The position numbers were made by a program, and so were the translations under genes. Of a stretch of DNA of 33,363 nucleotides, positions 8,912 through 25,725 are shown piece by piece. Where the stretch lies: positions 1 to 33,363 of the forward strand of contig JAMPIG010000041.1 in NCBI GenBank assembly GCA_023662875.1, given 5' to 3'. This DNA comes from Roseburia sp. Its GTDB lineage: Bacteria > Bacillota > Clostridia > Lachnospirales > Lachnospiraceae. Numbering within the stretch: the first letter of the stretch is position 1; every line of letters begins with the position of its first letter. Below the pieces are notes generated by a model, which saw only the letters and a program-made list of their open reading frames with translations, was not told the DNA's origin and made no database searches.

Positions 8912-8915
8912 ATCA

Positions 8916-11438: not shown

Positions 11439-11453
11439 AGTCCCTCCTATACG

Positions 11454-11470
11454 GAACGGCCTTGCCGTTC
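11454..11470 (-). other. Small intergenic hairpin between regulator and GH51 genes
   Basis: GAACGGC-CTT-GCCGTTC is a 7-base perfect stem in the 48-base gap between the response regulator stop and the GH51 start. It lacks a T-run. It may protect mRNA ends or tune relative expression rather than stop transcription. Confidence 0.4.
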
Positions 11471-11486
11471 TTTGCCGGATATTCCG

Positions 11487-13121
11487 CTATCGCTCCGACA
11501 GCCGCCGGTCTGTATTCCGCTCCCCGACCGCGCCCTTTCGGTATTCCATCGGGGTACAGCCCTCCAGCTGTTTAAAGCTTCTGGTAAAATTGGAGTAATT
11601 TCCATACCCCACATGACTGGAAATCAATGTCACAGGCAGGGAGGTGGTGGCCAGCAGCATTTTGGCCGATTCCATTTTTTCTTTTATGATATATTCCTTT
11701 AACGTGTACCCGGTATTCTTTTTAAAAAGCTTTGTCAGGTATTCCGGGTTCATACCTGCAAACTCCGCTATTTCCGAAACGGACAGATCCGTGTCCAGCC
11801 TCTGCCGGATATATTTCATGGTCTCCCGGATCACATCCCTGGATTCCTCCTTCGCCTCCAGCTCCTGCAGTCTTCCCGCAATGTGAGATAAGGCCTTTTC
11901 AAATAATTCCAGGCTCTGCCAGGCGCTCATATAAGTCAGGTAGGGCAGATCCTCGTCGAAAACCAAATCGCTGCCAATCTGCCGTTCCACCAGGTACGAA
12001 AGAAGAAGCTGAGTTACGCTTTGGTGCAGATTCATCATATCGGAGGCATTCATATGTCGTCGGGAATCCCCTCCGATATAACAGAGAACACTGTCCCGAA
12101 AGGGAAGGAACCGATTCTGCTCCAATAGTCTCTTCCATGCCCCCAGCTGCAGCCTGTAGGAACGGTTTTCCACATCCTCCTCATCCTTTTTCGGGCAGAA
12201 CACCCGACTCTCCTGACGCACATTGTCCGTTTTCGCCTGAAGCAAAAGCTCTGCGCAGCGCAAAAGCTTTTCCGGCCCGCCTGCTTCGCCGCAGTAAACG
12301 GCCGCCGTAGTCTGCATCACACGGAACAGCAAAATTCGGAAATTCTCCAGACTCTCCGCGATGATCTCCCGGGTATGGGGTGCCTCCTTGTCCCAGTACA
12401 GGAGCACCGTGAAATCCGTCCCCTCTTCCTCCAGCAAAATAATGCTGTATACCTTTAAGGCCTGAAACACCTCGTCCAGAATATTCTGGTAAATCAGGCG
12501 CAAGAGAGGCTTTTCAATCTCCTGCAGCCTCTTCTGAGTCTTCAAAATCTGAACCAGAACCGGCAGATAGACCGACACCCCAGCCGGATAAATATTGTGA
12601 AGGGCAATCATCCTCCTCAGATAGGAATTATCCGTATTCCGGCCGTCCAGATACTGTAGAGCGCCTACCTCCAGTATATTTTCCTCGTGCGACTGAAAAA
12701 AAGCCCCGCGGTTCATCAGCACTCTGTTTTTCTTTTCGATCTTAATCTGAGAAACCGCCCTTTCCACCACGCTGCGCAGCTCCTCCAGGCTGGCGGGCTG
12801 GAACACATAATCAAAGCTCTGCATGGCGATGGCTTCCTTCATGTAATTGACGTCCGCGTATGCCGTCAGAAAAATAATCTTGACTTCCGGATCTCGTTCC
12901 AGAATCCATCGCGCAAAGGTGATTCCGTCCTCCTTCGGCATCACAATATCGCAAAGAAAAATATCGTAATGGCGGCGGCTCATACATTCCCGGGCCTGGG
13001 CGGCGCTTTCCGCGATATCAATCTCTTCCACCCCTCCTAACTGCATTCTGGACAGCTGCGAATACACTGTCTTTAAAATGGTTCTTTCATCATCGATAAT
13101 CAATACATTCATCTTCGTCAC
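11487..13121 (-). CDS. YesN-type response regulator with AraC-family DNA-binding domain
   Basis: The 544-residue protein has a receiver domain (about 4-125: acidic D10-D11, phospho-acceptor D58 in LCDIVMPKEDG, T86). A long middle region of unclear family follows (about 140-420). Two AraC-type helix-turn-helix motifs end it (about 435-535: LSVSEIAEFAGMNPEYLTKLF, then SSHVGYGNYSNFTRSFKQ). Such proteins bind paired direct half-sites and activate sugar-transport operons. The receiver's conserved Lys, usually in a KP motif, is Gln108 (DYVFQPAS), so phosphorylation switching may be altered. A GTG start at 13121 is preferred: it overlaps the upstream stop as GTGA and has AGG six bases before it; ATG at 13112 is the alternative. 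No kinase gene is adjacent. The YesM-type kinase at 23900-25627 is the candidate partner. Confidence 0.9.
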   Translation of the reverse strand: MTKMNVLIIDDERTILKTVYSQLSRMQLGGVEEIDIAESAAQARECMSRRHYDIFLCDIVMPKEDGITFARWILERDPEVKIIFLTAYADVNYMKEAIAMQSFDYVFQPASLEELRSVVERAVSQIKIEKKNRVLMNRGAFFQSHEENILEVGALQYLDGRNTDNSYLRRMIALHNIYPAGVSVYLPVLVQILKTQKRLQEIEKPLLRLIYQNILDEVFQALKVYSIILLEEEGTDFTVLLYWDKEAPHTREIIAESLENFRILLFRVMQTTAAVYCGEAGGPEKLLRCAELLLQAKTDNVRQESRVFCPKKDEEDVENRSYRLQLGAWKRLLEQNRFLPFRDSVLCYIGGDSRRHMNASDMMNLHQSVTQLLLSYLVERQIGSDLVFDEDLPYLTYMSAWQSLELFEKALSHIAGRLQELEAKEESRDVIRETMKYIRQRLDTDLSVSEIAEFAGMNPEYLTKLFKKNTGYTLKEYIIKEKMESAKMLLATTSLPVTLISSHVGYGNYSNFTRSFKQLEGCTPMEYRKGAVGERNTDRRLSER

Positions 13122-14188
13122 ACAATACCTGTTTTCTGTCCTTCGGCGCAATACATATTCTGCATAAACTGATCTGCCAACATCTCCCAGACTTCAAAGT
13201 TGGGATATTTCACCGTCCCGTCCAGAAGCTTCCGCCCGGCCTGTCCGTGAGGCACGCCGGAGAAGGTATGTAATTCGACGGTTATCCCCCGGCTGACCAA
13301 CTCAGGATAAAGCCTATTGATATTATCCATGTTAAAATCCTCCAGCCCCAGCGCATGAAACACCGGCGGGTATACCACTCTGCTGTAATCGAAGGAATCA
13401 TGATTCATTCTGGGACCGTAGATACAGAGAAAAACATCCATGGAGCCGCTGATTTGATCCAGGGCGTCCTCCTCATACCCCGCAAATACATCCGCCACCT
13501 TCTGATCCCCGGAATAATACTGGATACATGCCTCTCCCGTCAGGCCACCATTGGAGAAACCGGCAAAGGCCACCCTGTTTTCCGCAATCCGATACTTCGC
13601 GGCGTTGGCCCGGACGATGCGGATCGCCCTGGCCACATCCGCCCCCGCTTCCCTGGAATCCCAGGGATTCCCATTCGGGCGGTTTAACAGGATAAAGCAC
13701 TGATAGCCCATTTTATTAAAGTCCAGTGCTACCTGATAGCTTTCACACAAAACCGGAAACCCATGATCGCCCCCCGCGCAAAGAACTATCGCTCCCTTCG
13801 GCGTTACCTCCTCCGCTACCAACATTTCATACAGATAAGGTACGAAATCAGGATTATGGTTATATCGCCAGGCGGAATTATCCCGATAATCCGTCAGCGT
13901 GGGAACCTTGCTTTCCGGCCACAGCATAATTCTGGGCCGTTCTGTCTTTTTCCCTTCGATCTCCAGTCGCAGCTTCTTAAATTCCGGCAGTCTTTCCCGA
14001 ATCTTCTCGGGATCTCCCAGCTCCTCGATTTCTCCGGCCATCTTCGCCAGCCGAACCAGCAGATCGACAGGATAGCACACACAATCCTCAAACAGAGGAA
14101 CCGCCGCCAGATTTTCCTCCCCAAAGACACTGCGAACCAGATCCATTCTGGCGCGCATTTTTTCAAATAATGCCTTCATATCCTCCAT
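13118..14188 (-). CDS. Alpha/beta-hydrolase, probable esterase
   Basis: The 356-residue protein has a helical N-terminal segment (1-80) and then an alpha/beta-hydrolase core. The strand GAIVLCAGGDHGFP could form the oxyanion region, the nucleophile elbow is G-F-S212-N-G-G, and a late H in SGVPHGQAG is a likely catalytic His. FILLNRPNGNPWDSREAGADVARAIRIVRANA resembles sugar-esterase-type hydrolases, but I cannot name a family with confidence. No signal peptide is seen. It is the second gene of the operon, 18 bases after the BD-FAE-like gene, and its stop overlaps the GTG of the regulator gene by four bases. GGAAGGAG lies nine bases before the ATG. Deacylation of imported sugars is inferred from context. 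Confidence 0.72.
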   Translation of the reverse strand: MEDMKALFEKMRARMDLVRSVFGEENLAAVPLFEDCVCYPVDLLVRLAKMAGEIEELGDPEKIRERLPEFKKLRLEIEGKKTERPRIMLWPESKVPTLTDYRDNSAWRYNHNPDFVPYLYEMLVAEEVTPKGAIVLCAGGDHGFPVLCESYQVALDFNKMGYQCFILLNRPNGNPWDSREAGADVARAIRIVRANAAKYRIAENRVAFAGFSNGGLTGEACIQYYSGDQKVADVFAGYEEDALDQISGSMDVFLCIYGPRMNHDSFDYSRVVYPPVFHALGLEDFNMDNINRLYPELVSRGITVELHTFSGVPHGQAGRKLLDGTVKYPNFEVWEMLADQFMQNMYCAEGQKTGIV

Positions 14189-14206
14189 TTTCTTCGTCTC
14201 CTTCCA

Positions 14207-15178
14207 TTACTTTTTCAGCATGAGCTTTTTCCAGAAAAAGCCCAGCACAATATCGTAATAGCCCTGCCCCTTGAAAAAACCGTGTCCCTGCCCGGGCACC
14301 ACTACAAAGGTAGCGTCATGTCCGTATTTCAACAGGGCGTCATAATAGTTATAAGAAAACAGCGGCGTCACCGCCTGATCGCTATCCCCGTGCATCAAAA
14401 GGAAAGCGGGCTGTCTCTGATCCACATAGAAAATAGGACTGATCTCCATCGAAAGCTCAGGCGCTTCCCGCCCGGGCTTTCCGAACATCTGCAGAAAAAT
14501 CCCCTTCTGCACCTCGTCTGTCTTTTGACCCCCGTTCTCCGTCTGTCTCGGCATCAGGGTCAGCCGGATTCCCAGCTCCCTGGCCCTGGCCTGTACCTCC
14601 GGACATTCGTAAGCGCCCATATGGGTCATATCCCCGCCGCAGTACCAGTCGCAGACTGCCCTCACCTCGCTGCTGTATTCCTGCCAGCCCCCGTTTCCTT
14701 CCAGCTTGGGATTCGCATAAGAAGCGCCGACCAGCGCGGCCAGCTGGCCTCCCGCCGACTCCCCCCAGATCCCGATTCCGTCCGGGTCGATGCCCAGTTC
14801 CCCGGCATGGGCCTTCAGAAAGCGAACCGCGCACTTACAGTCCTCTACAGGTGCCGGGAAGGGAGCCTCCGTCACCAGACGATACTCGATGCTGGCGCAG
14901 ACAAAGCCCATTTCGCACGCCTGGGCCAACGCCTCCGCCGGGCGATATTTCTTCGTCAGCTCTGGGATACTCCATCCGCCTCCGTGCACCCAGATGATCA
15001 CAGGACGGAGCCCGGACGCCTCTCCCCGGGGCATCATCAAATCGAGATACATGGGATGTCCGCCGCCTCGTCCGTACTCCACATCCTCATAGAAATCAAT
15101 ATCCCTGCTCTCCCAGTCCATCCCGCAGCCTTCCATGACGCCGGTCTCTTCCCCCGCCCGTTTTTTCCACTCTGCCAT
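14207..15178 (-). CDS. BD-FAE/Aes-like alpha/beta-hydrolase (acetyl or feruloyl esterase-like)
   Basis: The 323-residue esterase has the hormone-sensitive-lipase-like motif HGGGW (65-69) and nucleophile elbow G-E-S141-A-G-G. The acidic residue is probable in LLMHGDSDQAV and the catalytic His in PGQGHGFF. MYLDLMMPRGE before the HGGGW is the usual start of the BD-FAE (bifunctional feruloyl/acetyl-xylan esterase) group. No signal peptide is seen. It is the first gene of the minus-strand operon. The leader is only about 20 bases, with AAGGAGGAG before the ATG, and a promoter with operator lies directly upstream. Feruloyl or acetyl ester hydrolysis is an inference from family and neighbours. Confidence 0.83.
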   Translation of the reverse strand: MAEWKKRAGEETGVMEGCGMDWESRDIDFYEDVEYGRGGGHPMYLDLMMPRGEASGLRPVIIWVHGGGWSIPELTKKYRPAEALAQACEMGFVCASIEYRLVTEAPFPAPVEDCKCAVRFLKAHAGELGIDPDGIGIWGESAGGQLAALVGASYANPKLEGNGGWQEYSSEVRAVCDWYCGGDMTHMGAYECPEVQARARELGIRLTLMPRQTENGGQKTDEVQKGIFLQMFGKPGREAPELSMEISPIFYVDQRQPAFLLMHGDSDQAVTPLFSYNYYDALLKYGHDATFVVVPGQGHGFFKGQGYYDIVLGFFWKKLMLKK

Positions 15179-15200
15179 AGCATTCTCCTCCTTGTCGTTT

Positions 15201-15234
15201 ATTCTATTATAACGGACGGCGGCAAAATATACAA
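15201..15234 (-). promoter_or_regulatory. Promoter of the esterase/GH51 operon
   Basis: On the minus strand TTGTAT (15229-15234) and a perfect TATAAT (15206-15211) are 17 bases apart. A second possible -10, TAGAAT (15201-15206), overlaps it and lies exactly 35 bases from the start of the proximal operator half-site, the same geometry as the other two promoters of the locus. The start codon is about 20 bases beyond the expected transcription start. Confidence 0.75.
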
Positions 15235-15263
15235 AAACAGATTTTACCTATCATATTTTCTGA
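15232..15263 (-). promoter_or_regulatory. Tandem operator before the esterase/GH51 operon
   Basis: In transcription direction the distal half-site TCAGAAAAT (15263 down to 15255) is followed exactly 22 bases later by TCTGTTTTTGTATAT (15241 down to 15227). The proximal half overlaps the -35 hexamer. It matches the operators at 15372-15408 and 23866-23898 in sequence, order and orientation. Binding by the AraC-type regulator encoded in this operon is inferred. Confidence 0.65.
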
Positions 15264-15371
15264 TTTTCCCACGGATACATCTTTTCCGGGCAGAATCTCC
15301 GGCGGCGACGTTCCTGACGTAAATTTCCGGCAACGGCTCCCTGGACGCGAATTCCAGCCGAAGCTTCGTTG

Positions 15372-15408
15372 TCAGAAAATAAGACTCCCGATATCGGATT
15401 TTGTATAT
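15372..15408 (+). promoter_or_regulatory. Tandem operator before the CocE-type gene
   Basis: TCAGAAAAT (15372-15380) and TCGGATTTTGTATAT (15394-15408) start 22 bases apart. The proximal half matches TCAGATTTTGCATAT of the binding-protein promoter at 13 of 15 positions. Orientation relative to transcription is the same as at the other two promoters. Confidence 0.65.
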
Positions 15409-15428
15409 GATTCTCCCTCAAATTCTGA

Positions 15429-15434
15429 TATCAT
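15429..15434 (+). promoter_or_regulatory. -10 element of the CocE-type gene
   Basis: TATCAT starts exactly 35 bases after the start of the proximal half-site at 15394, as TATAAT does at the binding-protein promoter. No good -35 is seen at normal spacing, which fits an activator-dependent promoter. Confidence 0.5.
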
Positions 15435-15440
15435 AACGAT

Positions 15441-15540
15441 GTCCAACCGTTTTACCGTCCTGTGCGCAGAACGGTTTTGACTCATGATAATAGAATTCTC
15501 GCAAGGCGTGAATTCTATCGTTCCAAAAAGATAGGAGGTT
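15441..15540 (+). other. Structured leader of the CocE-type gene
   Basis: If transcription starts near 15441, the leader is about 107 bases, much longer than that of the divergent operon. It can fold two hairpins: AACCGTT/AACGGTT (15445-15451 with 15470-15476) and ATAGAATTC/GAATTCTAT (15490-15498 with 15510-15518). The second ends 14 bases before the AGGAGG (15533-15538). No riboswitch family is recognised. Confidence 0.4.
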
Positions 15541-15547
15541 TACTACC

Positions 15548-17227
15548 ATGAGAATCATCAAGAATTTTTCCTGCGTGACCCGCGATCAGATCAAATTGGC
15601 CACCGATCTGTATCTGCCTGACGAAGAGGGGCGTTATCCCGTCATCCTGATGCGCACGCCCTACAACAAGGAGGGGATTGTGCGGGAGCCTCTCTACGAG
15701 CACTATCCCCGGTTCGTGGAGGCCGGTTACGTCGTGGCGATCCAGGACTGCAGGGGAACCTGCGCCTCGGAGGGGAAGATGAACCTGAACGGCGGCAACG
15801 AACACGAGGACGGCTATGACGCCGTGGAATTCCTGTCCGCCCAGCCCTTCTGCGACGGCAGCGTCGGGATGTTTGGCCTGTCCTACTTCGGCTTCACCCA
15901 GCTGGCTGCGGCATCCGGTGCCCCGGCCCACCTGAAGGCGATCTGTCCCTTTATGTGCTGCTCCCTCGCGTCCTTCGGAACCAGCCCCATGCAGACCATA
16001 GCTCCCTTTCATCTGGGCTGGGCTTACAATCAGCTGCTGGAGCACATCGAGCAGTACCTGCCGGACGAGGCGTTTCGCGGTAAAATGCTTCCCCTGCTGA
16101 AGGAAAACCGGGACAAGCTGGGCGAATACGCTAAAATTCTTCCCATGAATCAGAATCCCGCCGCCCTCCTGGAGGGCGTTCCCATGCTGAAGGACTATCT
16201 GGATCTGGTGGAGGGCGTAGAGAAAAAGGAATTCTGGGACAGTATCCACAGCCCCATTTCCTACGACGGAATCCATACCGCCATGCTCTGTGGAACCGGA
16301 TGGATGGACGCCGCATGCAACAGCACCATTGACAATTATATGGCCGCCCGCAAGTCCGCGGATTCTTACACAAGGGAGAACGCCTTCCTCCTGATCGGCC
16401 CCTGGACTCACGGCGGAGTTATGCCCAGCCGGGTCGAGGACGTTGATTTCGGGGAAGAAAATTCCGGCGAGGCCCGGGATGTGGCCGGTACTATGCTTCA
16501 CTGGTTTAACCGCTACCTGAAGCAAAGGGACGAAGCCTTCCTCCCTGACCGGGTATATTACTTCATGCAGGGCAGCAACGACTGGCACACCGCGGCGGAC
16601 TGGCCCCCGCCCCGGGCAGAGTCCGTAAAATTCTATCTTGCTCCCCATCGAAAGCTGGAAATCACTGCGTCGGAAGCCGGAGAGGAAGCTCTGGTCTATG
16701 ACCCCATGAATCCCGCCCCTTCCGCCATCACGGATAAAGAGGGCCGCATGGCTATGGCGGACTGGTCGGAAATTTCCGACCGGGAGGACATCCTGGAGTT
16801 TCGCTCGGATCCGTTTACCGAGGATCTTCGTCTGGCAGGCCGTATCCTTGTAAACCTATACGCCGCCACAGACGTGCCGGACACGGATTTCGTCTGCCGT
16901 CTCACCGATATCTCTCCGGACGGCCGCCAGCGTCAGATCGCGGCGGGCTACGTCCGCGCCCGCCACAGGAACGGACTGTTTACCAATGACTTCCTCACTC
17001 CTGGGGAAACCGTGCTCTACCGCTTCGGAATCGGCCACGCTGCCTACCGGATTCCCGCCGGACACGCCGTCGGCATCCAGCTTTCCGGGAGCATGTTCCC
17101 CGGCATCAACCGGAACCTGAACACAAAGGAGCCGCCCGCTCTGGGAAGCGGTTACGCCGTGGCCCACGACCGGATCTTCTTTGGCGGAGAGCAGGCATCC
17201 TGCCTGGATCTGCCCATTCTGAGATAA
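15548..17227 (+). CDS. CocE/NonD-family hydrolase (peptidase S15-like fold)
   Basis: The 559-residue protein belongs to the CocE/NonD family (X-Pro dipeptidyl-peptidase-like alpha/beta-hydrolases: acyl esterases and amidases). It has an N-terminal hydrolase domain with PVILMRTPYNKEG, the QDCRGTCASEG segment, the nucleophile G-L-S112-Y-F-G, the probable Asp in GTGWMDAACN and the catalytic His in GPWTHGG. A C-terminal jelly-roll domain follows (from about 400; ends with LSGSMFPGINRNLNT). No signal peptide is visible. AGGAGG precedes the ATG by nine bases. It is monocistronic, divergent from the esterase operon, and ends at a strong terminator. The substrate is unknown; sharing the operator suggests it hydrolyses an ester of the same imported carbohydrate. 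Confidence 0.88.
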   Translation: MRIIKNFSCVTRDQIKLATDLYLPDEEGRYPVILMRTPYNKEGIVREPLYEHYPRFVEAGYVVAIQDCRGTCASEGKMNLNGGNEHEDGYDAVEFLSAQPFCDGSVGMFGLSYFGFTQLAAASGAPAHLKAICPFMCCSLASFGTSPMQTIAPFHLGWAYNQLLEHIEQYLPDEAFRGKMLPLLKENRDKLGEYAKILPMNQNPAALLEGVPMLKDYLDLVEGVEKKEFWDSIHSPISYDGIHTAMLCGTGWMDAACNSTIDNYMAARKSADSYTRENAFLLIGPWTHGGVMPSRVEDVDFGEENSGEARDVAGTMLHWFNRYLKQRDEAFLPDRVYYFMQGSNDWHTAADWPPPRAESVKFYLAPHRKLEITASEAGEEALVYDPMNPAPSAITDKEGRMAMADWSEISDREDILEFRSDPFTEDLRLAGRILVNLYAATDVPDTDFVCRLTDISPDGRQRQIAAGYVRARHRNGLFTNDFLTPGETVLYRFGIGHAAYRIPAGHAVGIQLSGSMFPGINRNLNTKEPPALGSGYAVAHDRIFFGGEQASCLDLPILR

Positions 17228-17295
17228 AACGGTTTTCTGCCGCAAGCCTGCCGAAAAGCGGTTTCGCCGCGCAACGCCCGGACTGAACAGCAATC

Positions 17296-17341
17296 GGCCG
17301 CCGCGCCGGGATTAGATTCCCTCCCGGCGCGGCGGCCTTTT
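17296..17341 (+). terminator. Rho-independent terminator after the CocE-type gene
   Basis: A 15-base perfect GC-rich stem (GGCCGCCGCGCCGGG at 17296-17310 with 17323-17337) is followed by TTTT. The convergent carboxylesterase gene stops at 17368, so the hairpin may also limit transcription arriving from the other side, although no T-run exists on that strand. Confidence 0.85.
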
Positions 17342-17367
17342 CTCATCCAGCTCTTTTAGCTTTTTCC

Positions 17368-18930
17368 TTACCGATCCGTCAGCTTTTCCTTCCCATAGGC
17401 GAGACGGAAGTCAAGCGCCGGACATTCCTCCAATACCCCTGGCACAGCGGTATCCAAAAACCTCATAACGTTCTTCTCCTCCGGGCGATAAGCCTTCCAC
17501 TCCGGCAGGGGCTTTCCGTTGTAATCCAGGCCGTCCCCGTTGGGATCGCCGGTCTTAACGAAATTCGTCCAATAAGAGGTCACCTGCCTCGCCAGATCAT
17601 AGTGCTTTCCCTCGAAGGGTCTCCAGCTGTTGCCAAGGGAGTCGAACATGAACCAGAGATCCGAGCCGTGGAACGCTCCCGCGTCGTCCCCCGGGATATC
17701 ATGATCAAAGATATAATAGTATACTCTCTTGCCCATGCCGGAGCGCAGCTCACAGAATCCCCTGCTTCCGCTCAGGAACATGTTAAAGGCATCCGTCCTG
17801 GTCAACTCCGCCGCCTCCTCGTCGCCGGATACGTTAACCGCCTTCAGAAAGGCTTCCTTCCGCTCTCCGTACCCCTCCGCTTTCTCCAGCACATCCTGAT
17901 AGGTCAGCTGCCCTCTGCCGAACATTCCCTGGGTTTCTCCCATACAGACGCCCACCATCATGGGAACGTCGGGCAGCCTGTCGTTGTAATAGGAGCTTAC
18001 CACCGACTCCTTCACGAATTTCCCGTCGATACAGGTACCGAAGGAAAGCCCGAACATGGCTCCCTTGGGAGACACACTGTCCAAAAGCCGCATCAACTCC
18101 TCCGCGTCCATAGCGCGGGCCTGAGCCAGGCTGCTTATCCCTACCTTCCGGAAGAAGTCCGCCCCGTGCGCCTCCGCCTGCGCCAGCGTCATGTCTCGTC
18201 CCATGGACGCCTTCTCGTCCCCAAAGCCGAACGATACGGCCGACTGGCAGATCGCGCCCGCAATAATTCCCTCGTTCATGGGACTGCAGAGCTGGGTCTG
18301 GACGCTGCCCGCTCCTGCGCTCTGGCCGCAGATCACGATCCGCGAAGGATCGCCGCCGAAGCCCGCAATATTCCTGGCTACCCAGTGCAGCGCCATGGAC
18401 TGATCCTGCATGCCGAAGTTCGACACTACGCTTCCCTCGGGCGTCTCCGCCGTGATCTCCGGATGGGCCAGGAAGCCGAACAGTCCCAGACGGTAGCCGA
18501 TCATCACTACGATCACTCCCCGCCGGGCTACACGCTCCCCGTCGAATTCCACCTCGTAATTGTATCCGTCCTGCAGGCCGCCGCCATGAATGTAACAAAA
18601 TACCGGCAGCTTTTCGTCCGCCTTCTCCGCCGGGGAGAAAATATTCAGATAGAGGCAATCCTCGCTCATACCGAAGTCCGCGGACACAGGATGCAGCTCC
18701 CTCTTATAAAAGCTGTCGTCCGTGCCGGGATGCACCCGCATCATAGGCATATCGCCGTACTCATAGCACTTGCGCACGCCCTCCCAGCTTTCCGCCGGCT
18801 GCGGTGCCCTCCAACGAAGCTCTCCCACCGGCGGCTTCGCGTAGGGAACCCCGCGGAATACCGTGATTCTGGGATCCTTTCCCACAAGCCCCTGTACTGT
18901 ACCGTTTTCTGTCTGAACCGTTCTAAGCAT
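17368..18930 (-). CDS. Type-B carboxylesterase (paralogue 2)
   Basis: The 520-residue alpha/beta-hydrolase is co-linear with the protein at 7361-8911. Both share FRGVPYAKPPVGELRW, SEDCLYLNIF, IHGGG and nucleophile G-Q-S204-A-G at identical positions, and the C-terminal segment from FDSLGNSWRPFEG to SYWTNFVK is nearly the same. They differ most in 212-400, which in this fold lines the acyl or alcohol pocket, so they may act on different esters. No signal peptide. The ATG at 18930 follows GGAAGG. It is the last gene of the importer operon, after the GH93-like gene with a 113-base gap. The catalytic role on imported acylated sugars is inferred. Confidence 0.9.
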   Translation of the reverse strand: MLRTVQTENGTVQGLVGKDPRITVFRGVPYAKPPVGELRWRAPQPAESWEGVRKCYEYGDMPMMRVHPGTDDSFYKRELHPVSADFGMSEDCLYLNIFSPAEKADEKLPVFCYIHGGGLQDGYNYEVEFDGERVARRGVIVVMIGYRLGLFGFLAHPEITAETPEGSVVSNFGMQDQSMALHWVARNIAGFGGDPSRIVICGQSAGAGSVQTQLCSPMNEGIIAGAICQSAVSFGFGDEKASMGRDMTLAQAEAHGADFFRKVGISSLAQARAMDAEELMRLLDSVSPKGAMFGLSFGTCIDGKFVKESVVSSYYNDRLPDVPMMVGVCMGETQGMFGRGQLTYQDVLEKAEGYGERKEAFLKAVNVSGDEEAAELTRTDAFNMFLSGSRGFCELRSGMGKRVYYYIFDHDIPGDDAGAFHGSDLWFMFDSLGNSWRPFEGKHYDLARQVTSYWTNFVKTGDPNGDGLDYNGKPLPEWKAYRPEEKNVMRFLDTAVPGVLEECPALDFRLAYGKEKLTDR

Positions 18931-19043
18931 CCTTTTTACCTTCCTTTCCTGACTCTATGATTATCGATTCTCTACGTCTTTCTTTCCCGCCTCGCACCGG
19001 CGGTTTTCTTTCGCCGCTTCCCGCCCCTTAAGCGGAAAGCGCT

Positions 19044-20216
19044 TTACAGCCGCTCGTAAATGTCCGCCACCGCCGCCTCAATCAGCGCCAGCTCCGGCGA
19101 AATATGGCGAGGACAAAGATTTAAAATCCGCTTCCCTCCGTGCAGGGCGATCATGCACTGGCTATATCCAGTAAAATTGTAGGTATTGTCAACCTCCACC
19201 AGCGCGTCCATTTTCTCCCAGAAGCCCTCCCCCATACAGGAATTCGCGAAAATATGGGAGTATCCCCTGCCGGATACCAGCAGCGTACCGTTTTCTCCGC
19301 CTCCCGGAATCCAGAGCACATAGGGAGTCCCGGTAGGGTAGCTGCCGTCGGCCGCAATGACCGGATTCCCCATAAAATCAGGACTTCCCCAGTCATCCAT
19401 GGAATCCGATATCCGAAAATACACCGGAATCCGATCCTCATTGACCATCTCATAAACCATAATAAATCTTCCGTCCGGCAGATACTCCACAACAGGCATG
19501 CCGGGACGCAGATTACCGTCCGCAAACGCCACATCGATCTTTTCTTCTCCCCAGGTATAGCCGCCATCCTCCGAAACCTTGTGGGCGAGGAGCTGATTGT
19601 ACCCCTTTTCCTTATACCGCTCGTCCGAATAATAGCAGTAAAGCCTGTGATCCGGGGACTGTAGTAAGAACGGCTCCCAGACCGGCTTCCCCCTCTGATA
19701 ATCCGGCGTGGCCTTCCCGCCCTGCAGGATCTCGCTCATAAGCTCCCAGCTTTTTCCCGCGTCCTCGCTCTTATACAGCTGCAGCGACGTGGAAGAAAAA
19801 TCCCCCGGAATAATATTCCCCGCACAGAGAACAGTTCCTTCCTTTAAGCTTCCCATGGCACAGGGAAGCTCAAACAGATGCGGCTGAAAACGGATCCCGC
19901 TTCCGGCAGCTCCCTCGGCCACTCCGCTCAGGAAATGCCAGGTTCTCCCCTCGTCCGTGCTCTCATAAACAGGAAACAGCGGCTTCTCTTTATTGTACCA
20001 CTCCATGGTAGCCAGCAGCGTCCCGTTCTTCTCCCCGTTATGGGCCAGGCAGATACAGCGGGGATACATGGCCCCGGGGCGGCGTTGTCCCTCCCCCGGG
20101 CAGCATACCATCCCGGAATATCTCTTTTTCAGCAGAACATTACTGCTTCCCCCTTCCTTCGGGATGAAGCCGCCGTTCTTTTCATACAGCGTGTCGTGTA
20201 CATTTCGATCCGTCAT
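19044..20216 (-). CDS. Sialidase-fold (BNR/Asp-box) glycosidase, GH93-like, possible exo-arabinanase
   Basis: The 390-residue protein has a six-bladed sialidase-like fold indicated by Asp-boxes STDEGRTW (86-93), SEDAGKSW (150-157) and SEDGGYTW (215-222). WEPFLL (180-185), CYYSDER (194-200) and the LRPGMPVVEYLPDGRFIMVYE stretch resemble my recollection of GH93 exo-1,5-alpha-L-arabinanases more than true sialidases. The FRIP motif and Arg triad of sialidases are not evident. With a GH51 gene in the same locus, release of arabinobiose from arabinan fragments is plausible. No signal peptide. The ATG at 20216 (MTDRNVHD) with AAGGGG before it is preferred over an upstream TTG at 20243. It follows the importer permease genes after a strong hairpin. 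Confidence 0.68.
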   Translation of the reverse strand: MTDRNVHDTLYEKNGGFIPKEGGSSNVLLKKRYSGMVCCPGEGQRRPGAMYPRCICLAHNGEKNGTLLATMEWYNKEKPLFPVYESTDEGRTWHFLSGVAEGAAGSGIRFQPHLFELPCAMGSLKEGTVLCAGNIIPGDFSSTSLQLYKSEDAGKSWELMSEILQGGKATPDYQRGKPVWEPFLLQSPDHRLYCYYSDERYKEKGYNQLLAHKVSEDGGYTWGEEKIDVAFADGNLRPGMPVVEYLPDGRFIMVYEMVNEDRIPVYFRISDSMDDWGSPDFMGNPVIAADGSYPTGTPYVLWIPGGGENGTLLVSGRGYSHIFANSCMGEGFWEKMDALVEVDNTYNFTGYSQCMIALHGGKRILNLCPRHISPELALIEAAVADIYERL

Positions 20217-20238
20217 ACTTATACCCCTTTGCGTACTT

Positions 20239-20269
20239 CCCAAGAGGGTGTGTAAACACCCCTCTTGGG
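20239..20269 (-). other. Strong intergenic hairpin between permease and GH93-like genes
   Basis: CCCAAGAGGG-TGT-GTAA-ACA-(C)-CCCTCTTGGG folds into a 13-base-pair stem with one bulge and a GTAA tetraloop on the plus strand. No T-run follows on the minus strand, so it is more likely an mRNA processing or stability element than a terminator. It would separate transporter message from enzyme message. Confidence 0.6.
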
Positions 20270-20289
20270 CATACCAATCAATATTTTCC

Positions 20290-21180
20290 TCATCCCTTGA
20301 CGCCGCCGATTACAATTCCCTTGATAAAGGCCTTCTGGAAGAAGGGATAAATCATGAGAATCGGCAACACCGAGATCACTGCTATCGCCATACGCACTCC
20401 CTGCGTGGGAATCTGATTGACAATCTGGGCGCTGGCGGCGTCCAGCGTATTTTCCTTTAGAAACTGCACGTTATTCATCATGCTGTTCAGCACATTCTGA
20501 ATCGTGTACAGATCCTTTCTCCGGGTCAGATAATAGATACCGTTGATCCAGTCATTCCAATAGGCCAGCGCGGAAAACAGCGCCACTGTAGAGATCATGG
20601 GCTTGGAAAGCGGGATAGAGACATAGAACAGCTTCCCGATCTCACTGCAGGAGTCCATCTCCGCTGCCTCCAGAATCTCCTGGGGAACGTTGGTGCTGAA
20701 GTAGGTTCTCATCAGAATGACGTTATAGGCCCCCAGCAGCAGATTAGGACAGATCAGCGCAAATATGGAATCTCCCACATGCATATACTGACTCCACACG
20801 ATGTAGCTGGGCACCATGCCGCCGGAAAACAGCATGGTAAAAAAGATAAAGAAGGAAAGAAAGCCCTTCCCCGGCAGATCCGGCTTGGAGAGAAGATACC
20901 CCATGAACATTGTCATAAACACATTGATTGTAGTGCCGATCGCCGTGACCAGCACCGTCATACCATAGGCTCTTACAATTCCCCCGAAGGACTGAAACAG
21001 ATACTGATATGCCTTGAAATTAAACACCTCCGGAATAAAGGCATAGCCGTTTTTCATCAGCGTGGCCTCATCTGTTACGGAGGATGAGATCAGCAGGATG
21101 AAGGGCAGCACGCAGCCGAGAGCCAGCAGGGTCATGACCACGTTTGCAAAAATCCGAAACCCATTTTTTGTACAAACCAT
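20290..21180 (-). CDS. Carbohydrate ABC transporter permease (LplC/YtcP type)
   Basis: The 296-residue inner-membrane permease has about six membrane segments. The cytoplasmic EAA loop reads ILEAAEMDSCSEIGKLFYVSIPL, the contact site for the ATPase. The C-terminus (PFFQKAFIKGIVIGGVKG) is the typical MalG/LplC-type ending. It forms the second half of the channel with the permease at 21211-22167. AGGAGG precedes the ATG, and the gap to the upstream permease gene is 30 bases. No ATPase gene of the MsmK/UgpC type is in the window, so the importer probably borrows a shared ATPase encoded elsewhere, as is common in this transporter class. Confidence 0.93.
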   Translation of the reverse strand: MVCTKNGFRIFANVVMTLLALGCVLPFILLISSSVTDEATLMKNGYAFIPEVFNFKAYQYLFQSFGGIVRAYGMTVLVTAIGTTINVFMTMFMGYLLSKPDLPGKGFLSFFIFFTMLFSGGMVPSYIVWSQYMHVGDSIFALICPNLLLGAYNVILMRTYFSTNVPQEILEAAEMDSCSEIGKLFYVSIPLSKPMISTVALFSALAYWNDWINGIYYLTRRKDLYTIQNVLNSMMNNVQFLKENTLDAASAQIVNQIPTQGVRMAIAVISVLPILMIYPFFQKAFIKGIVIGGVKG

Positions 21181-21210
21181 ATATATATTCCTCCTAACTG
21201 GAACGCGGCG

Positions 21211-22167
21211 TCAGAACAGAGCGCTCTCGTTATCCACCTTCCGCACTACCGCATTGGTTATCATAACTACAATGAAGCCTAGAATCGACTGCAGGAACCC
21301 TGCCGCCAGAGATCTGCCCACATCGTGATCCTGCATCAGCGTACGATAGACAAAGGTGTCGATGGTGGTTGTGGTCGAATACAGCATGCCGCTGTTCTGA
21401 GGCACCTGGTAAAACAGGCCGAAATCGGAAGCAAACATTCTTCCCAGAGACATAATCGTCAGAATGATTACCGTAGGCTTTAAAAGCGGCAGGGTAATCC
21501 GGGTAATCTGCTGCCAGACCGACGCCCCATCCATCACAGACGCCTCATAATACGCCTTGTCAAAACCGATGATCGTGGCAAAGTAGACAATGCTTTGGAA
21601 GCCGAAGCTTCTCCACAGCTGCACGATCACCAGAATTACCGGCCAATAGCTTGCCTTAGTGTACCAGCTGATGGGATCCACCCCCAGAGGAGCCAGAATC
21701 CCGTTATTGACAAAGCCGTTCTTCTCCGAGAGGAACGCAAAAACCAGATACCCGATCAAAACGGTACTGACCAGATGAGGAATCAATATCAGGGTCTGGT
21801 ACGTCTTTTTGAGCAGATTATGGCTGATCACGCTCAGTAATATGGCTACAAAAATGGCAAAAGCCGTCCCCAGCACAAGAAATACGATATTATAGCAGAT
21901 TGTGTTCCGGAACATGATCTTAGCCCATTTGGATCCGAACAGAAAGGTAAAATTATCCAATCCGTTCCAGGGACTGGCCAGAATTCCCTTCGCAAAGCTG
22001 TACTTCTTAAAGGCCAGAATCAAACCGCCCATCGGCAGATAATTGTTGATTATCAGATAAATAAAGCCCGGAAGGGACAGCAGATAGAGCGGCACGTATT
22101 TGCGCAGTCTCTTCGTAATCTGCTTTTTCTTTCCCGGACCTTGCTTTCCTTTTCTAACATTTTGCAT
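21211..22167 (-). CDS. Carbohydrate ABC transporter permease (LplB/YteP type)
   Basis: The 318-residue membrane protein begins with a basic N-terminus (KGKQGPGKKKQITKRLRKY) and a first helix LYLLSLPGFIYLIINNYLPMGG, which is characteristic of LplB/YteP permeases that pair with LplC. The EAA loop is YYEASVMDGASVWQQITRITLPLLKP. Six membrane segments are expected. It lies directly downstream of the binding-protein gene, separated by an attenuator-like hairpin. The ribosome site is weaker than those of its neighbours (GGCGGG about six bases before the ATG), which also fits lower expression than the binding protein. Confidence 0.93.
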   Translation of the reverse strand: MQNVRKGKQGPGKKKQITKRLRKYVPLYLLSLPGFIYLIINNYLPMGGLILAFKKYSFAKGILASPWNGLDNFTFLFGSKWAKIMFRNTICYNIVFLVLGTAFAIFVAILLSVISHNLLKKTYQTLILIPHLVSTVLIGYLVFAFLSEKNGFVNNGILAPLGVDPISWYTKASYWPVILVIVQLWRSFGFQSIVYFATIIGFDKAYYEASVMDGASVWQQITRITLPLLKPTVIILTIMSLGRMFASDFGLFYQVPQNSGMLYSTTTTIDTFVYRTLMQDHDVGRSLAAGFLQSILGFIVVMITNAVVRKVDNESALF

Positions 22168-22184
22168 CGCAATCCCGCCTTTCT

Positions 22185-22219
22185 AAAAATTGCCGGCTGT
22201 AGCTGTCACAGCCGGCAAT
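22185..22219 (-). terminator. Attenuator-like hairpin between binding-protein and permease genes
   Basis: ATTGCCGGCTGT/ACAGCCGGCAAT (22189-22200 with 22208-22219) is a perfect 12-base stem, followed on the minus strand by TTTTT. It lies 18 bases past the binding-protein stop and ends just before the ribosome site of the permease gene. Such partial terminators typically keep the binding protein in excess over the permeases. Confidence 0.75.
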
Positions 22220-22237
22220 CACATCCAAAATCGACTT

Positions 22238-23782
22238 TTACTTGTCTTCCAGCGCCTTCAGGAATTCATCGAACTGTCTCTGCTCCTCTGCGATGATTTC
22301 ATCGATCCCGGCATCCTTCAGCTCCTGGTTGAACTTTGCCAGATATTCGTCCACATCCACAAGGCCGTAAAGCAGAGCAGGCCTGTATTCCGCCACCACT
22401 GTAGCGCATGCCGCCATCTGGTCATATACGTTCGCGCTGTCGAAGACAAAACCCATGGCGCTGGAGAACTGCGCGTGGTTGGGCGCATCCCACATATCCG
22501 TATAATAAGCGGTAAAATCTGTCTCCAAAGGCAGGCTCAGACACTGATTCGGCCAATACCAGGGGAAGGTCAGGTTCCAGGTAGAGGTGTTGGAATCTAT
22601 GCCCTCGGGATATCTGGCGATTCCCTTTTCATCTACCGTATAGGTCTGTCCCTCCACGCCCAGGATAATGTAGCGGGCTACGTTCTCGTCCGTCGTCATC
22701 AGATACAGCATCTTCATGGCAGCATCGGGATGTTTGCAGACAGAGGAAATCATCCATCCGCCCAGAACCGACGCGCTGGTACCCACCAGGTCGGTAAGCT
22801 TAAACTGTACATTGTCATATGTATAAGAAACAAGCGCCTTAATGTAGTCCGCACTGTAGCCGCCCACATAGCAGCCTGCCGCCACATCGTTATTGTACTG
22901 TTCGATGGTCATGGAATTATTCAACGGATCGTCGCACAAAAGTCCTGCCTCGTTCCATTCCTTCATCAGATAACAGAAATCGCGGAATTCCTCCGTCTCG
23001 TAGTAGTTGACGATATCCGTGGTTCCAACGCCTCTGTTCAGCAGCACTCCCAGCCAGTTACCGTTGCCCAGGCTGTCCAGCCCCTGTACGGGATCATCGT
23101 TCGTGTTGATCATATAGGCGTATTCCGGATGGATAGCCTTCGCGTCCTTCATGATCTGGGTCATCTCCTCCAGCGTAATCTCCTCGCCGTCTCTGTCCGC
23201 GATTCCCATCTCTTCCGCGATGTCCTTGCGCAGCATGTACACCTCATAAGTTCCGTAGCTATCCACGGAAGGCACCGCATACTGCACGCCGTCGATCTGC
23301 TGCGTCATCAGCACCTTCTCCGGGAACATCTCCCACATATCGGCATACTCCTCCAGATAGGGATCCAGGGAGATACACTGCTCATTCTTAACGCAGCCGT
23401 CCACGGTAGAATAGAATCTCCAGCAGAACAGATCCATGGGATTGGTGTTGTCGCTGAGGGACAGCGTCAGCTGCGTCGCCAGGTCGCCGATGGCGATCTG
23501 AACAATGTCCGCCTGTACCCCGGCATTGATGGAAACCAGATATTCATTTAACGCTTTCTCAACATCCACCTCCGCAGCCATTGTCGTTGGCGCCGGATAC
23601 ATGATGGAAATCACCGGCCATTCGGACGGGTCGTCTCCCGCTACAAATTCTCCCGCAGGCTCCCCGCCTCCGGCGCCGCCTGTGCCTCCCGCAGACTCTT
23701 TGTCGTCGGTACCGCCCCCACAGGCCGCCAGAGAAAGTGTCATTGCCGCTGCAAGGAGCAGCGCGAGTAACTTCTTTTTCAT
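22238..23782 (-). CDS. Extracellular solute-binding lipoprotein of a sugar ABC importer (LplA-like)
   Basis: The 514-residue protein begins MKKKLLALLLAAAMTLSLAAC: a lipoprotein signal with lipobox cysteine C21, so the mature protein is tethered to the outer face of the membrane. A Gly/Ser/Glu linker follows. The long length and contents (AEVDVEKALNEYL..., YAVPSVDSYGTYEVYMLRKDIAEEMG) fit the LplA-type family-1 binding proteins for oligosaccharides. The start at 23782 has AAGGAGG seven bases upstream. The first gene of the importer operon, it sits directly behind an operator and -10. The ligand cannot be read; arabino-oligosaccharide is inferred from the glycosidases in the locus. Confidence 0.92.
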   Translation of the reverse strand: MKKKLLALLLAAAMTLSLAACGGGTDDKESAGGTGGAGGGEPAGEFVAGDDPSEWPVISIMYPAPTTMAAEVDVEKALNEYLVSINAGVQADIVQIAIGDLATQLTLSLSDNTNPMDLFCWRFYSTVDGCVKNEQCISLDPYLEEYADMWEMFPEKVLMTQQIDGVQYAVPSVDSYGTYEVYMLRKDIAEEMGIADRDGEEITLEEMTQIMKDAKAIHPEYAYMINTNDDPVQGLDSLGNGNWLGVLLNRGVGTTDIVNYYETEEFRDFCYLMKEWNEAGLLCDDPLNNSMTIEQYNNDVAAGCYVGGYSADYIKALVSYTYDNVQFKLTDLVGTSASVLGGWMISSVCKHPDAAMKMLYLMTTDENVARYIILGVEGQTYTVDEKGIARYPEGIDSNTSTWNLTFPWYWPNQCLSLPLETDFTAYYTDMWDAPNHAQFSSAMGFVFDSANVYDQMAACATVVAEYRPALLYGLVDVDEYLAKFNQELKDAGIDEIIAEEQRQFDEFLKALEDK

Positions 23783-23835
23783 ACATTTTCCTCCTTTTTT
23801 TGAATTCCGCCCTTGCGGTTCTTTCTGATAACACA

Positions 23836-23841
23836 ATTATA
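23836..23841 (-). promoter_or_regulatory. -10 element of the importer operon
   Basis: A perfect TATAAT on the minus strand lies exactly 35 bases after the start of the proximal operator half-site at 23876. At 17-base spacing the -35 position reads TATTTT, a poor match, which fits a promoter needing an activator. The start codon is 54 bases further on. Confidence 0.65.
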
Positions 23842-23865
23842 CGCAGGCGAAACAAAGGAAAATAT

Positions 23866-23898
23866 GCAAAATCTGACAGCCGCTGCCGCATTTTCTGA
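23866..23898 (-). promoter_or_regulatory. Tandem operator before the importer operon
   Basis: In transcription direction TCAGAAAATGC (23898 down to 23888) and TCAGATTTTGC (23876 down to 23866) start 22 bases apart; nine of eleven positions are identical between the two half-sites, so this is the clearest copy of the repeat. It begins two bases past the stop codon of the histidine kinase gene. Confidence 0.68.
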
Positions 23899-23899
23899 T

Positions 23900-25627
23900 T
23901 TAAAGCGATCCGGCCTCCTCCCTTTTTGGCAGAAGCAGCTCCGCTACCGCCCCGCCCGCAGGGGCATTGTAAAAGAAAAACCGGGCCTGGCTTCCATACA
24001 TCAGATAGATACGGTATTTGATATTATCGATTCCTATATGGCGGGAATGATAACAGAATTCCGTCACAGGAGCGTTGAATTCCTCCAACTTGTCACCCGG
24101 ATATCCCTCTCCGTTGTCCGATACCCGGACGCTGATATACATGCCGTCCTTCCTCTCGACCTCCTCTACGGCTACCTCTACCGCCAGAATCTGTCCCTTG
24201 CGGCGGGCATGCTTTACGGAATTTTCCACAAAGGTCTGAATCGCCAGAATCGGCACACAGCAGTCCATCAACTCCTCCTTCACGTCCTTCTGCACCAGAA
24301 TCGGCATCTCGCCCCGCACCATATAAATCTGGCAATAGGCCTCCACTTCCTTCAGTTCCTCCCGTATGGTTACCAGGCTTTCCTGATTTCGGAAAACATA
24401 GCGAAAATGCTCCGAAAGCCACCGTATCATGAGGCGCACCGTATCCACATTTTTTTCCGATAAGAGAGAATCCATCAAATTCAGACAGTTGATAAAAAAA
24501 TGAGGATTTACCTGCAGCTGGTAATACTGCAGCTTGGCCGCATTGGCCTCCATCTCCTTCATGTATTTCTCCTGCTGCATATGCTGCATCTCACTTACGA
24601 TTTCATCCAGCCTCCGATTGATTTTCAAAAGCTCCAGCGCCTTTACTCCCTCCGCCTCGTCCTCCGCCTGCCCGTCTTCCTTCATTTTATCAAGACGCCT
24701 GGCCAGATGCTCCACCGGCCAAACCAGGGCATGGTTGAAGAGGTGCAGCACCGCCAGAAGAACGATAATCAGGATCAGCGGGATGAGAATGAACAGCAGC
24801 CAGAATTCCCAGCTGCCCATCAGCTCCGGAATGCTCCCTGTCTCCTGTATCACCGCCAGCCGCATCTCGAGAAAGCTGATCGAATCCGTCGCCACAACAT
24901 ATCCAACCCCCCGGGCAGCTCCCCGATCCGTACCCAGGGCGAGCAATTTCGCCGCTTCCTGCCCGGTCAGACCTTTCCCCACTGTTTCCAGTATCTCCCC
25001 GCCGTTATAAAACACAAGAGCAAAATCTTCCTCCGCCGGAAAATAGCTGTTCAGGTTCAGGACAAAGCCCACCAGCTTTTGCCGGATTCCCTTCATATAG
25101 ACAAGATAGGTTTCCTCCTCATACCGAAAATACCCTTCATGATAAGCCTCGTCGCCTATCCGGTTCAAATAGGATTTCAGACAGAGATTCAGGCGGTAAT
25201 TATCTCCTCTGTGGTCAAACTCGCTGTATTGACTTCGCAGGGTCTCCTTTGAGGCATCGTAGAAAAAAACGCCTCCGAAATAATTCAGTATCCCGGCCCT
25301 TCCCTCCAGATTGTTTGTCAGATAATAGGTGGAGCTGTACCATTCCGGCTCCGACAGAAACGGCCTCTTCAGGATCTGGAACTGCACGTTTTCGCTGTAT
25401 ATCCGGTCTACATAGCTCTTCATGGACTCAATATCCTTATTCAGACGCTGGGCGTAATGATTTGCCACAATCTGATTACTCCCGGTCAATTCCTCCGTCG
25501 TTCTCAGAATGGAATAAACTCCGTAAAGTACAAAAACGGCCAGCATCAGGCCGGAGGCCACCGCCCAGCCCGCCAGCAGATATCTGCGCAAAGAAATGAC
25601 TCTTTCTCCTCTGTTAATCCTTCTCAT
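23900..25627 (-). CDS. YesM-type sensor histidine kinase
   Basis: The 575-residue membrane kinase has helix 1 at about 16-40, an extracellular sensor region (about 45-270), helix 2 at about 275-299, a HAMP-like and coiled linker (to about 360), then the His_kinase domain with phospho-acceptor H376 in QVNPHFFINCLN. The ATPase domain has the N-box FVENSVKHA, DNGEGYPGD and GIDNIKYRIYLMYG. YesM kinases sense sugars or a binding protein and act on YesN regulators. The start at 25627 has GGAGAGG eight bases upstream; an upstream TTG at 25669 is less likely. No regulator gene is adjacent. The YesN-type regulator gene at 11487-13121 is the probable partner. The gene precedes the binding-protein gene in the same direction. 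Confidence 0.93.
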   Translation of the reverse strand: MRRINRGERVISLRRYLLAGWAVASGLMLAVFVLYGVYSILRTTEELTGSNQIVANHYAQRLNKDIESMKSYVDRIYSENVQFQILKRPFLSEPEWYSSTYYLTNNLEGRAGILNYFGGVFFYDASKETLRSQYSEFDHRGDNYRLNLCLKSYLNRIGDEAYHEGYFRYEEETYLVYMKGIRQKLVGFVLNLNSYFPAEEDFALVFYNGGEILETVGKGLTGQEAAKLLALGTDRGAARGVGYVVATDSISFLEMRLAVIQETGSIPELMGSWEFWLLFILIPLILIIVLLAVLHLFNHALVWPVEHLARRLDKMKEDGQAEDEAEGVKALELLKINRRLDEIVSEMQHMQQEKYMKEMEANAAKLQYYQLQVNPHFFINCLNLMDSLLSEKNVDTVRLMIRWLSEHFRYVFRNQESLVTIREELKEVEAYCQIYMVRGEMPILVQKDVKEELMDCCVPILAIQTFVENSVKHARRKGQILAVEVAVEEVERKDGMYISVRVSDNGEGYPGDKLEEFNAPVTEFCYHSRHIGIDNIKYRIYLMYGSQARFFFYNAPAGGAVAELLLPKREEAGSL

Positions 25628-25725
25628 ATACCGTACCTCTCCATTGCTGGTATCCTTCACACAATCCAAAATTCAGCCTGACTTCTTTTGCATACTTATT
25701 CCAGCCGTACAGCATATTCAACAGC

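Follow-up and report, generated by a model that had tools for sequence, protein, structure and literature searches.

Three promoters of a single gene cluster carry the same two-part sequence, which raises the question of what this sequence does and which protein reads it. The cluster lies on a stretch of 33,363 nucleotides from Roseburia sp. (Lachnospiraceae; GenBank assembly GCA_023662875.1, contig JAMPIG010000041.1, positions 1 to 33,363 of the forward strand), here termed the window. Read in the direction of transcription, the composite site has the form TCAGAAAAT-N13-TCNGNTTTTGNATAT and is followed by a -10-like hexamer. Very likely it serves as operator for the two-component system of the cluster itself, being bound in tandem by the response regulator encoded at 11487..13121 to activate a regulon of importer, esterase and GH51 genes.

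The composite site and its uniqueness in the genome

The elements of the three promoters are located as follows.

23862..23898, minus strand: composite site (putative operator) of the importer operon, its half-sites starting at 23898 and 23876; an ortholog site with 0 mismatches exists in genome G397
23836..23841, minus strand: -10-like TATAAT of the importer operon, starting 35 bases past half-site 2
15372..15408, plus strand: composite site (putative operator) of the cocE gene, its half-sites starting at 15372 and 15394
15429..15434, plus strand: -10-like TATCAT of cocE, with TGA just before it, starting 35 bases past half-site 2
15227..15263, minus strand: composite site (putative operator) of the esterase/regulator/GH51 operon, its half-sites starting at 15263 and 15241
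15201..15211, minus strand: -10-like TAGAAT of the esterase promoter at 15206-15201 (offset 35), overlapping a perfect TATAAT at 15211-15206 (offset 30)

The importer site begins one base past the stop codon of a kinase gene. Within the window, exact copies of TCAGAAAAT are confined to the three composites, as are matches to half-site 2 with up to one mismatch. The source genome (3.72 Mb, 151 contigs, 92% complete) was searched with spacers of 10-16 allowed and yielded exactly three matches, all in the window and every one with a spacer of 13. The same three matches alone were returned at up to three mismatches, and the reversed-pattern control gave 0 in both searches. A profile built from seven sites, with the window's three among its training set, scores these at 31.7, 30.9 and 29.8 bits, the next value among the 150 scored of 1243 first-look candidates being 11.8. 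A wider regulon is not apparent, as no fourth site occurs at up to three mismatches in this 92% complete genome, from which weaker sites may escape. A first-pass annotation, made from the sequence alone, had described the composite and proposed a whole-genome motif search as a check. Sites and hexamers are indeed present at the positions listed above, and the shared composite is confirmed as a feature of these three promoters only.

In the wider family, 82 of 397 genomes contain some match at up to three mismatches, while the window's genome is alone in having matches with one mismatch or none. Outside that genome, 89 matches stand against 15 for the reversed control, and the pattern is therefore commoner than its own reversal. 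All 89 carry at least two mismatches, the number being exactly two in five of them. For 29 of them the surrounding DNA was fetched (about 1.5 kb per side, less at contig ends). As 25 of the 29 lie inside stop-free stretches of at least 100 codons and one has TANNNT at +35, these 29 background matches resemble coding sequence more than operators. The fetched flanks of about 1.5 kb per side contain no relative of the regulator's DNA-binding domain.

A chance origin of the composite is ruled out by the scans of the source genome, the family and the ortholog genomes. The joint explanation by chance or by recent duplication of promoter DNA, devoid of regulatory meaning, would suit the fact that a single cluster holds all three sites and that two of them share a divergent intergenic region. 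It is nevertheless highly improbable: the 13-base spacer, the 20 bases before the -10 and the -10 hexamers themselves differ among the promoters, while the site and its offsets are fixed. The site is also unique genome-wide and is retained in orthologs.

Promoter geometry

At each of the three window promoters the half-sites start 22 bases apart. Together with six sites from other genomes, described below, nine sites are available for comparison. TANNNT stands at an offset of exactly 35 bases from half-site 2 in eight of the nine and one base earlier (34) in the ninth; outside the window, the offset is 35 in five of six sites and 34 in the sixth, although the hexamer of genome G399, TAATGT, is poor. 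TANNNT at other offsets averages 0.19 of 9, and a count of eight at any offset is reached in 0 of 5000 shuffles. All nine sites lack a good -35 element, with at most three of six matches to TTGACA at 16-19 bases from the hexamer. A TTGACA in the importer leader of genome G398 was considered and rejected, being misplaced at 12 bases from the -10.

The two half-sites are only moderately alike, sharing TCNG, which is followed by AAAAT in one and NTTTT in the other. When shifts of 9-45 were compared in both orientations, the direct register at 22 gave the highest self-match (7.44; permutation P 0.005), and the next-best direct self-match is 4.71. An inverted-repeat operator was rejected, since the best inverted self-match (6.46) lies below the direct one. 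By a cruder self-match test of single promoters, the window's own repeats are not distinguished. To see whether 22 is a general spacing, this test was applied to promoters of related solute-binding genes at 26 of 30 loci, leaving out the window's own, L080, L091 and L093. Spacing 21 gave the highest mean self-match of 30 spacings (9.00 of 15) and spacing 22 gave 8.38, but the window's repeats were indistinct by the same measure, so that neither value is taken as a general rule. A match to the DNA-binding domain occurs shortly upstream of the solute-binding gene at only four of the 30 loci (L083, L084, L098 and L099).

Class II promoters of AraC-type activators are those at which the proximal protein unit contacts the polymerase. 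The three promoters of the window show the site layout of this class, with two direct half-sites separated by roughly two turns of the helix and the proximal one overlapping a poor -35. A rival reading, in which the site serves repression or has a mixed role and the regulator blocks the promoters until a signal arrives, draws on the same position of half-site 2, where polymerase would touch the -35 region. The poor -35 at all nine sites suits an activator instead. For Caldicellulosiruptor bescii, it is reported that three of five AraC-type two-component regulators have tandem repeats, separated by large spacers, ahead of mapped promoters, and that these regulators are inferred to activate (PMC8579813). 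Likewise, XuaR is described as activating the xuaA upstream region in Escherichia coli (PMC11127375). Repression is thus quite unlikely.

The regulator and its predicted partner kinase

11487..13121, minus strand: YesN/XuaR-like response regulator carrying an AraC-type DNA-binding domain, predicted operator binder; Pfam Response_reg, HTH_18 and HTH_AraC, ortholog alignments
23900..25669, minus strand: sensor histidine kinase (YesM/LytS-like), predicted partner; Pfam His_kinase and HATPase_c, orthologs beside the regulator in five genomes

The domain scan of the regulator, run on the longer frame 11487-13151, returned Response_reg (2.6e-22), HTH_AraC (1.8e-21, two stretches) and HTH_18 (5.6e-21). 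An N-terminal receiver is thus joined to a C-terminal AraC-type double helix-turn-helix, as in YesN/XuaR-like response regulators. Because the protein is a response regulator, its signal should come from a kinase, namely that at 23900-25669 (His_kinase 5.7e-17), which is encoded 10 kb from the regulator and beside the importer. No operator was found before this kinase gene. In genomes G398, G399, G277, G451 and G714 the kinase and regulator genes are adjacent. They are about 10 kb apart in the window, and in G397 they lie on different contigs (L053 and L052) with the same neighbours. The two-component pair seems to have been split, the regulator gene now lying inside a target operon. Elsewhere in the source genome lies another importer cluster of the DUF3502 kind, which includes a YesM-type kinase of its own (L050 7680-15177, G000 contig C11).

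Conservation in genomes with regulator orthologs

Orthologous regulators were found by protein search, and the window-derived pattern was then taken to four genomes that hold one. Three of the four contain matches, four sites in total with 0 in the control, and each site lies at a promoter of the same cluster that serves kinase-regulator, importer or esterase genes. The G397 site (0 mismatches) lies between the kinase and the solute-binding gene. One G398 site precedes the solute-binding gene and another the kinase-regulator pair, and the G399 site lies between the regulator and a carboxylesterase gene. The training sites of the seven-site profile score 26.4-33.2 bits, and everything else among the 150 first-look candidates scored in each of nine genomes at most 16.6 bits.

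Orthologs were sought in two surveys. The regulator was matched in two of 397 family genomes, the source genome included, and later in three of 394 relatives of G397, G397 included. In both surveys three first-look candidates per genome were scored, and orthologs may therefore have been missed. In G451, the genome's best profile match overlaps the regulator stop codon and precedes the solute-binding gene, its half-site 1 being perfect. G714 has a weak full-length match on the regulator's contig, before two permease genes and the solute-binding gene that best matches that of the window. The G714 cluster comprises two DUF3502 solute-binding genes (L106 3888-5459 and 10054-11619), with a GH51 gene and two permease genes between them.

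The DNA-binding domains of the orthologs are identical to that of the window at 57/101 to 88/103 positions, and the presumed recognition-helix stretches are nearly unchanged in G397 and G398. The regulators of G405 and G415 (30% identical) and the second AraC-type response regulator of the source genome were not taken as orthologs.

These data also bear on the possibility that the site is read by another regulator, encoded elsewhere, while the protein at 11487-13121 binds something different. Candidates exist, as the source genome holds that further AraC-type response regulator (L049) and two other YesM-type kinases. In addition, G277 has an ortholog of the receiver part and no site, and binding of the window's regulator to the composite is itself a prediction. 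However, the site recurs beside the regulator, kinase or importer in genomes with regulator orthologs while the gene neighbourhoods differ, the DNA-binding domain is conserved alongside the site, and no strong site lies elsewhere in the source genome. A foreign reader is therefore unlikely.

Several points weigh against assigning the site to the cluster's own activator. Its half-sites are not close copies of one another. The -10 of the esterase promoter is ambiguous, because a perfect TATAAT also starts 30 bases after half-site 2. No site was found in G277, where the contig ends after the first ~338 regulator residues (receiver part 53% identical); this genome was counted as a miss. Half-site 2 of the G451 site is altered (ACAGAATTTTGATAG), leaving 16.7 bits. 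The G714 site is weak (11.9 bits, third in its genome), and the stretch before the other, first solute-binding gene of G714 has no clear site. The pairing of kinase and regulator is likely as judged from the gene neighbourhood in relatives, and both regulator binding and the resulting expression are predicted.

On balance, activation by the cluster's own regulator is preferred. The first-pass annotation had put forward an AraC-type activator with fixed 22- and 35-base geometry and had pointed to orthologous promoters for comparison. The activator is supported by the domain content, the 22-base tandem arrangement, the position of half-site 2 over the missing -35 and the sites in ortholog genomes. 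The spacing holds up at the three window promoters and, apart from the G277 miss and the altered G451 half-site, is kept in the orthologous ones, with offset 35 in five of six.

Across genomes, the site stands before importer genes, the CocE hydrolase gene, esterase genes and the kinase-regulator pair. More tentatively, a rigid 22/35 grammar may have been kept across Lachnospiraceae-type genomes while its targets changed, with the pair split in the lineage of the window and G397 and the half-sites differently constrained. In this proposal, the distal half would be a solid block of nine bases and the proximal half discontinuous over the -35 position. Given this unlike constraint, one protein would read two unlike half-sites.

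Target genes and operons

The genes downstream of the three sites, besides that of the regulator, are as follows.

22238..23782, minus strand: importer solute-binding protein (SBP_bac_1, DUF3502); ATG at 23782 picked by its ribosome-binding site
21211..22167, minus strand: importer permease 1
20290..21180, minus strand: importer permease 2
19044..20243, minus strand: BNR_2 (sialidase-like propeller) protein
17368..18930, minus strand: carboxylesterase-family protein, last of the predicted importer operon
15548..17227, plus strand: CocE/S15-type hydrolase (Peptidase_S15, PepX_C)
14207..15178, minus strand: BD-FAE-type (feruloyl-esterase-like) alpha/beta hydrolase, first in the predicted third operon
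13118..14188, minus strand: second, divergent alpha/beta hydrolase, best Pfam matches under their cut-offs
8916..11438, minus strand: alpha-L-arabinofuranosidase (GH51-type)
7361..8953, minus strand: carboxylesterase-family protein, last of the predicted third operon

The third operon is predicted to run from the BD-FAE-type esterase through the second hydrolase, the regulator and the GH51-type arabinofuranosidase to the carboxylesterase. Terminator-like hairpins lie past its last gene at 7287-7261 and 7203-7183, although such matches are also common in shuffles. The predicted importer operon (17368-23836) contains no ATPase gene, and the importer would therefore presumably use a shared ATPase encoded elsewhere. 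The first-pass annotation had also put at least 11 genes under the regulator at 11487-13121. The three operators do stand before these genes, and the figure of 11, which includes the regulator's own gene, is a prediction from gene spacing.

Some features accompany these genes. In the cocE leader (window 15440-15550) two strong hairpins are possible, one of them formed by ATAGAATTC/GAATTCTAT (z -2.5; 2 of 200 shuffles fold equally). Shorter hairpins also occur in the leader of the solute-binding gene, with z -1.0 in the window, -1.75 in G397 and -1.9 in G451. MatE-family transporter genes are found in or beside orthologous clusters (L052 1391-2779 in G397; L051 2881-4266 in G277), and it may be speculated that these might export phenolic acids freed by the esterases.

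Proposed mechanism

The membrane kinase is proposed to sense a sugar fragment and to phosphorylate the response regulator at 11487-13121. Judging from the gene content, acylated arabinoxylo-oligosaccharides would be the most likely ligand, as for the xua system of Ruminiclostridium cellulolyticum. The two half-sites, TCAGAAAAT and TCNGNTTTTGNATAT, would then each be bound by an AraC-type domain, head to tail, at a spacing of 22 bp that puts both on the same face of the DNA. The proximal unit, lying over the missing -35, would recruit polymerase to the -10 at 35 bases from half-site 2 by class II activation. In this way, the importer operon, the CocE-type hydrolase and the esterase/GH51 operon would be switched on. 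Positive feedback would act on the regulator and not on the kinase, because the regulator gene lies in a target operon and the kinase gene outside. In G398, by contrast, an operator precedes the kinase-regulator pair.

Comparison with known systems

The window encodes an ordinary kind of switch that is sharply defined: the operator of a known kind of regulator. The first account stands, and to it are added the sites in ortholog genomes, the sensor kinase and the splitting of the two-component pair. Oligosaccharide importers in Firmicutes are commonly controlled by YesM/YesN-type two-component systems, whose DNA sites are poorly defined. In the window's genome, an operator, its three targets and its distance to the -10 are defined to the base, and they recur in relatives. 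This provides a test bed for activation by a receiver-controlled AraC-type dimer and a route to assigning sugar regulons in uncultured bacteria. No description of the window's operator was found in the open-access literature searched, as far as titles, abstract starts and passages go.

The araI1-araI2 operators of E. coli are spaced by 21 bp and overlap the -35. Two proximal operators are jointly bound there by AraC to recruit RNA polymerase, as proposed for the window, although AraC binds arabinose itself and is without a receiver domain (PMC4760080). Looping or a distal operator was not noticed in the window, where no search aimed at either was made.

Closer in protein architecture, XydS/XydR of Clostridium cellulolyticum includes an AraC-type response regulator, for which gel shifts show binding upstream of hemicellulase genes (PMC3572039). 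It differs from the window's system in that it is reported with no clear consensus operator and that autoregulation was looked for there and not found; the study describes no consensus site as identifiable for AraC/XylS activators (PMC3572039). The AxuRS, BxgRS and AviRS systems of C. bescii resemble the window in their tandem-repeat sites with large spacers upstream of CUT1 importer promoters (PMC8579813). Organism and targets are different, and the likeness covers the described arrangement of the sites (PMC8579813).

The nearest counterpart is XuaSR/xua of R. cellulolyticum, which, as described in the text available, combines a LytS-family sensor and an AraC-type response regulator with a three-gene importer that has no ATPase gene of its own, a GH51 arabinofuranosidase and esterases (PMC11127375, PMC9675976). 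Its regulator switches on the promoter in front of the solute-binding gene (PMC11127375). The window has the same combination of importer, GH51 enzyme and esterases under an AraC-type two-component system, with a presumed cytosolic location of the enzymes. None of the partner enzymes GH43, GH8 and GH39 is found among the cluster genes scanned (7361-25669), and the cluster is therefore considered to work like xua but is not classed as a xua system. In R. cellulolyticum, xuaA-J form one operon with xuaSR adjacent (PMC11127375), whereas the window has three promoters with a common operator, separate kinase and regulator genes, and the regulator gene inside a target operon.

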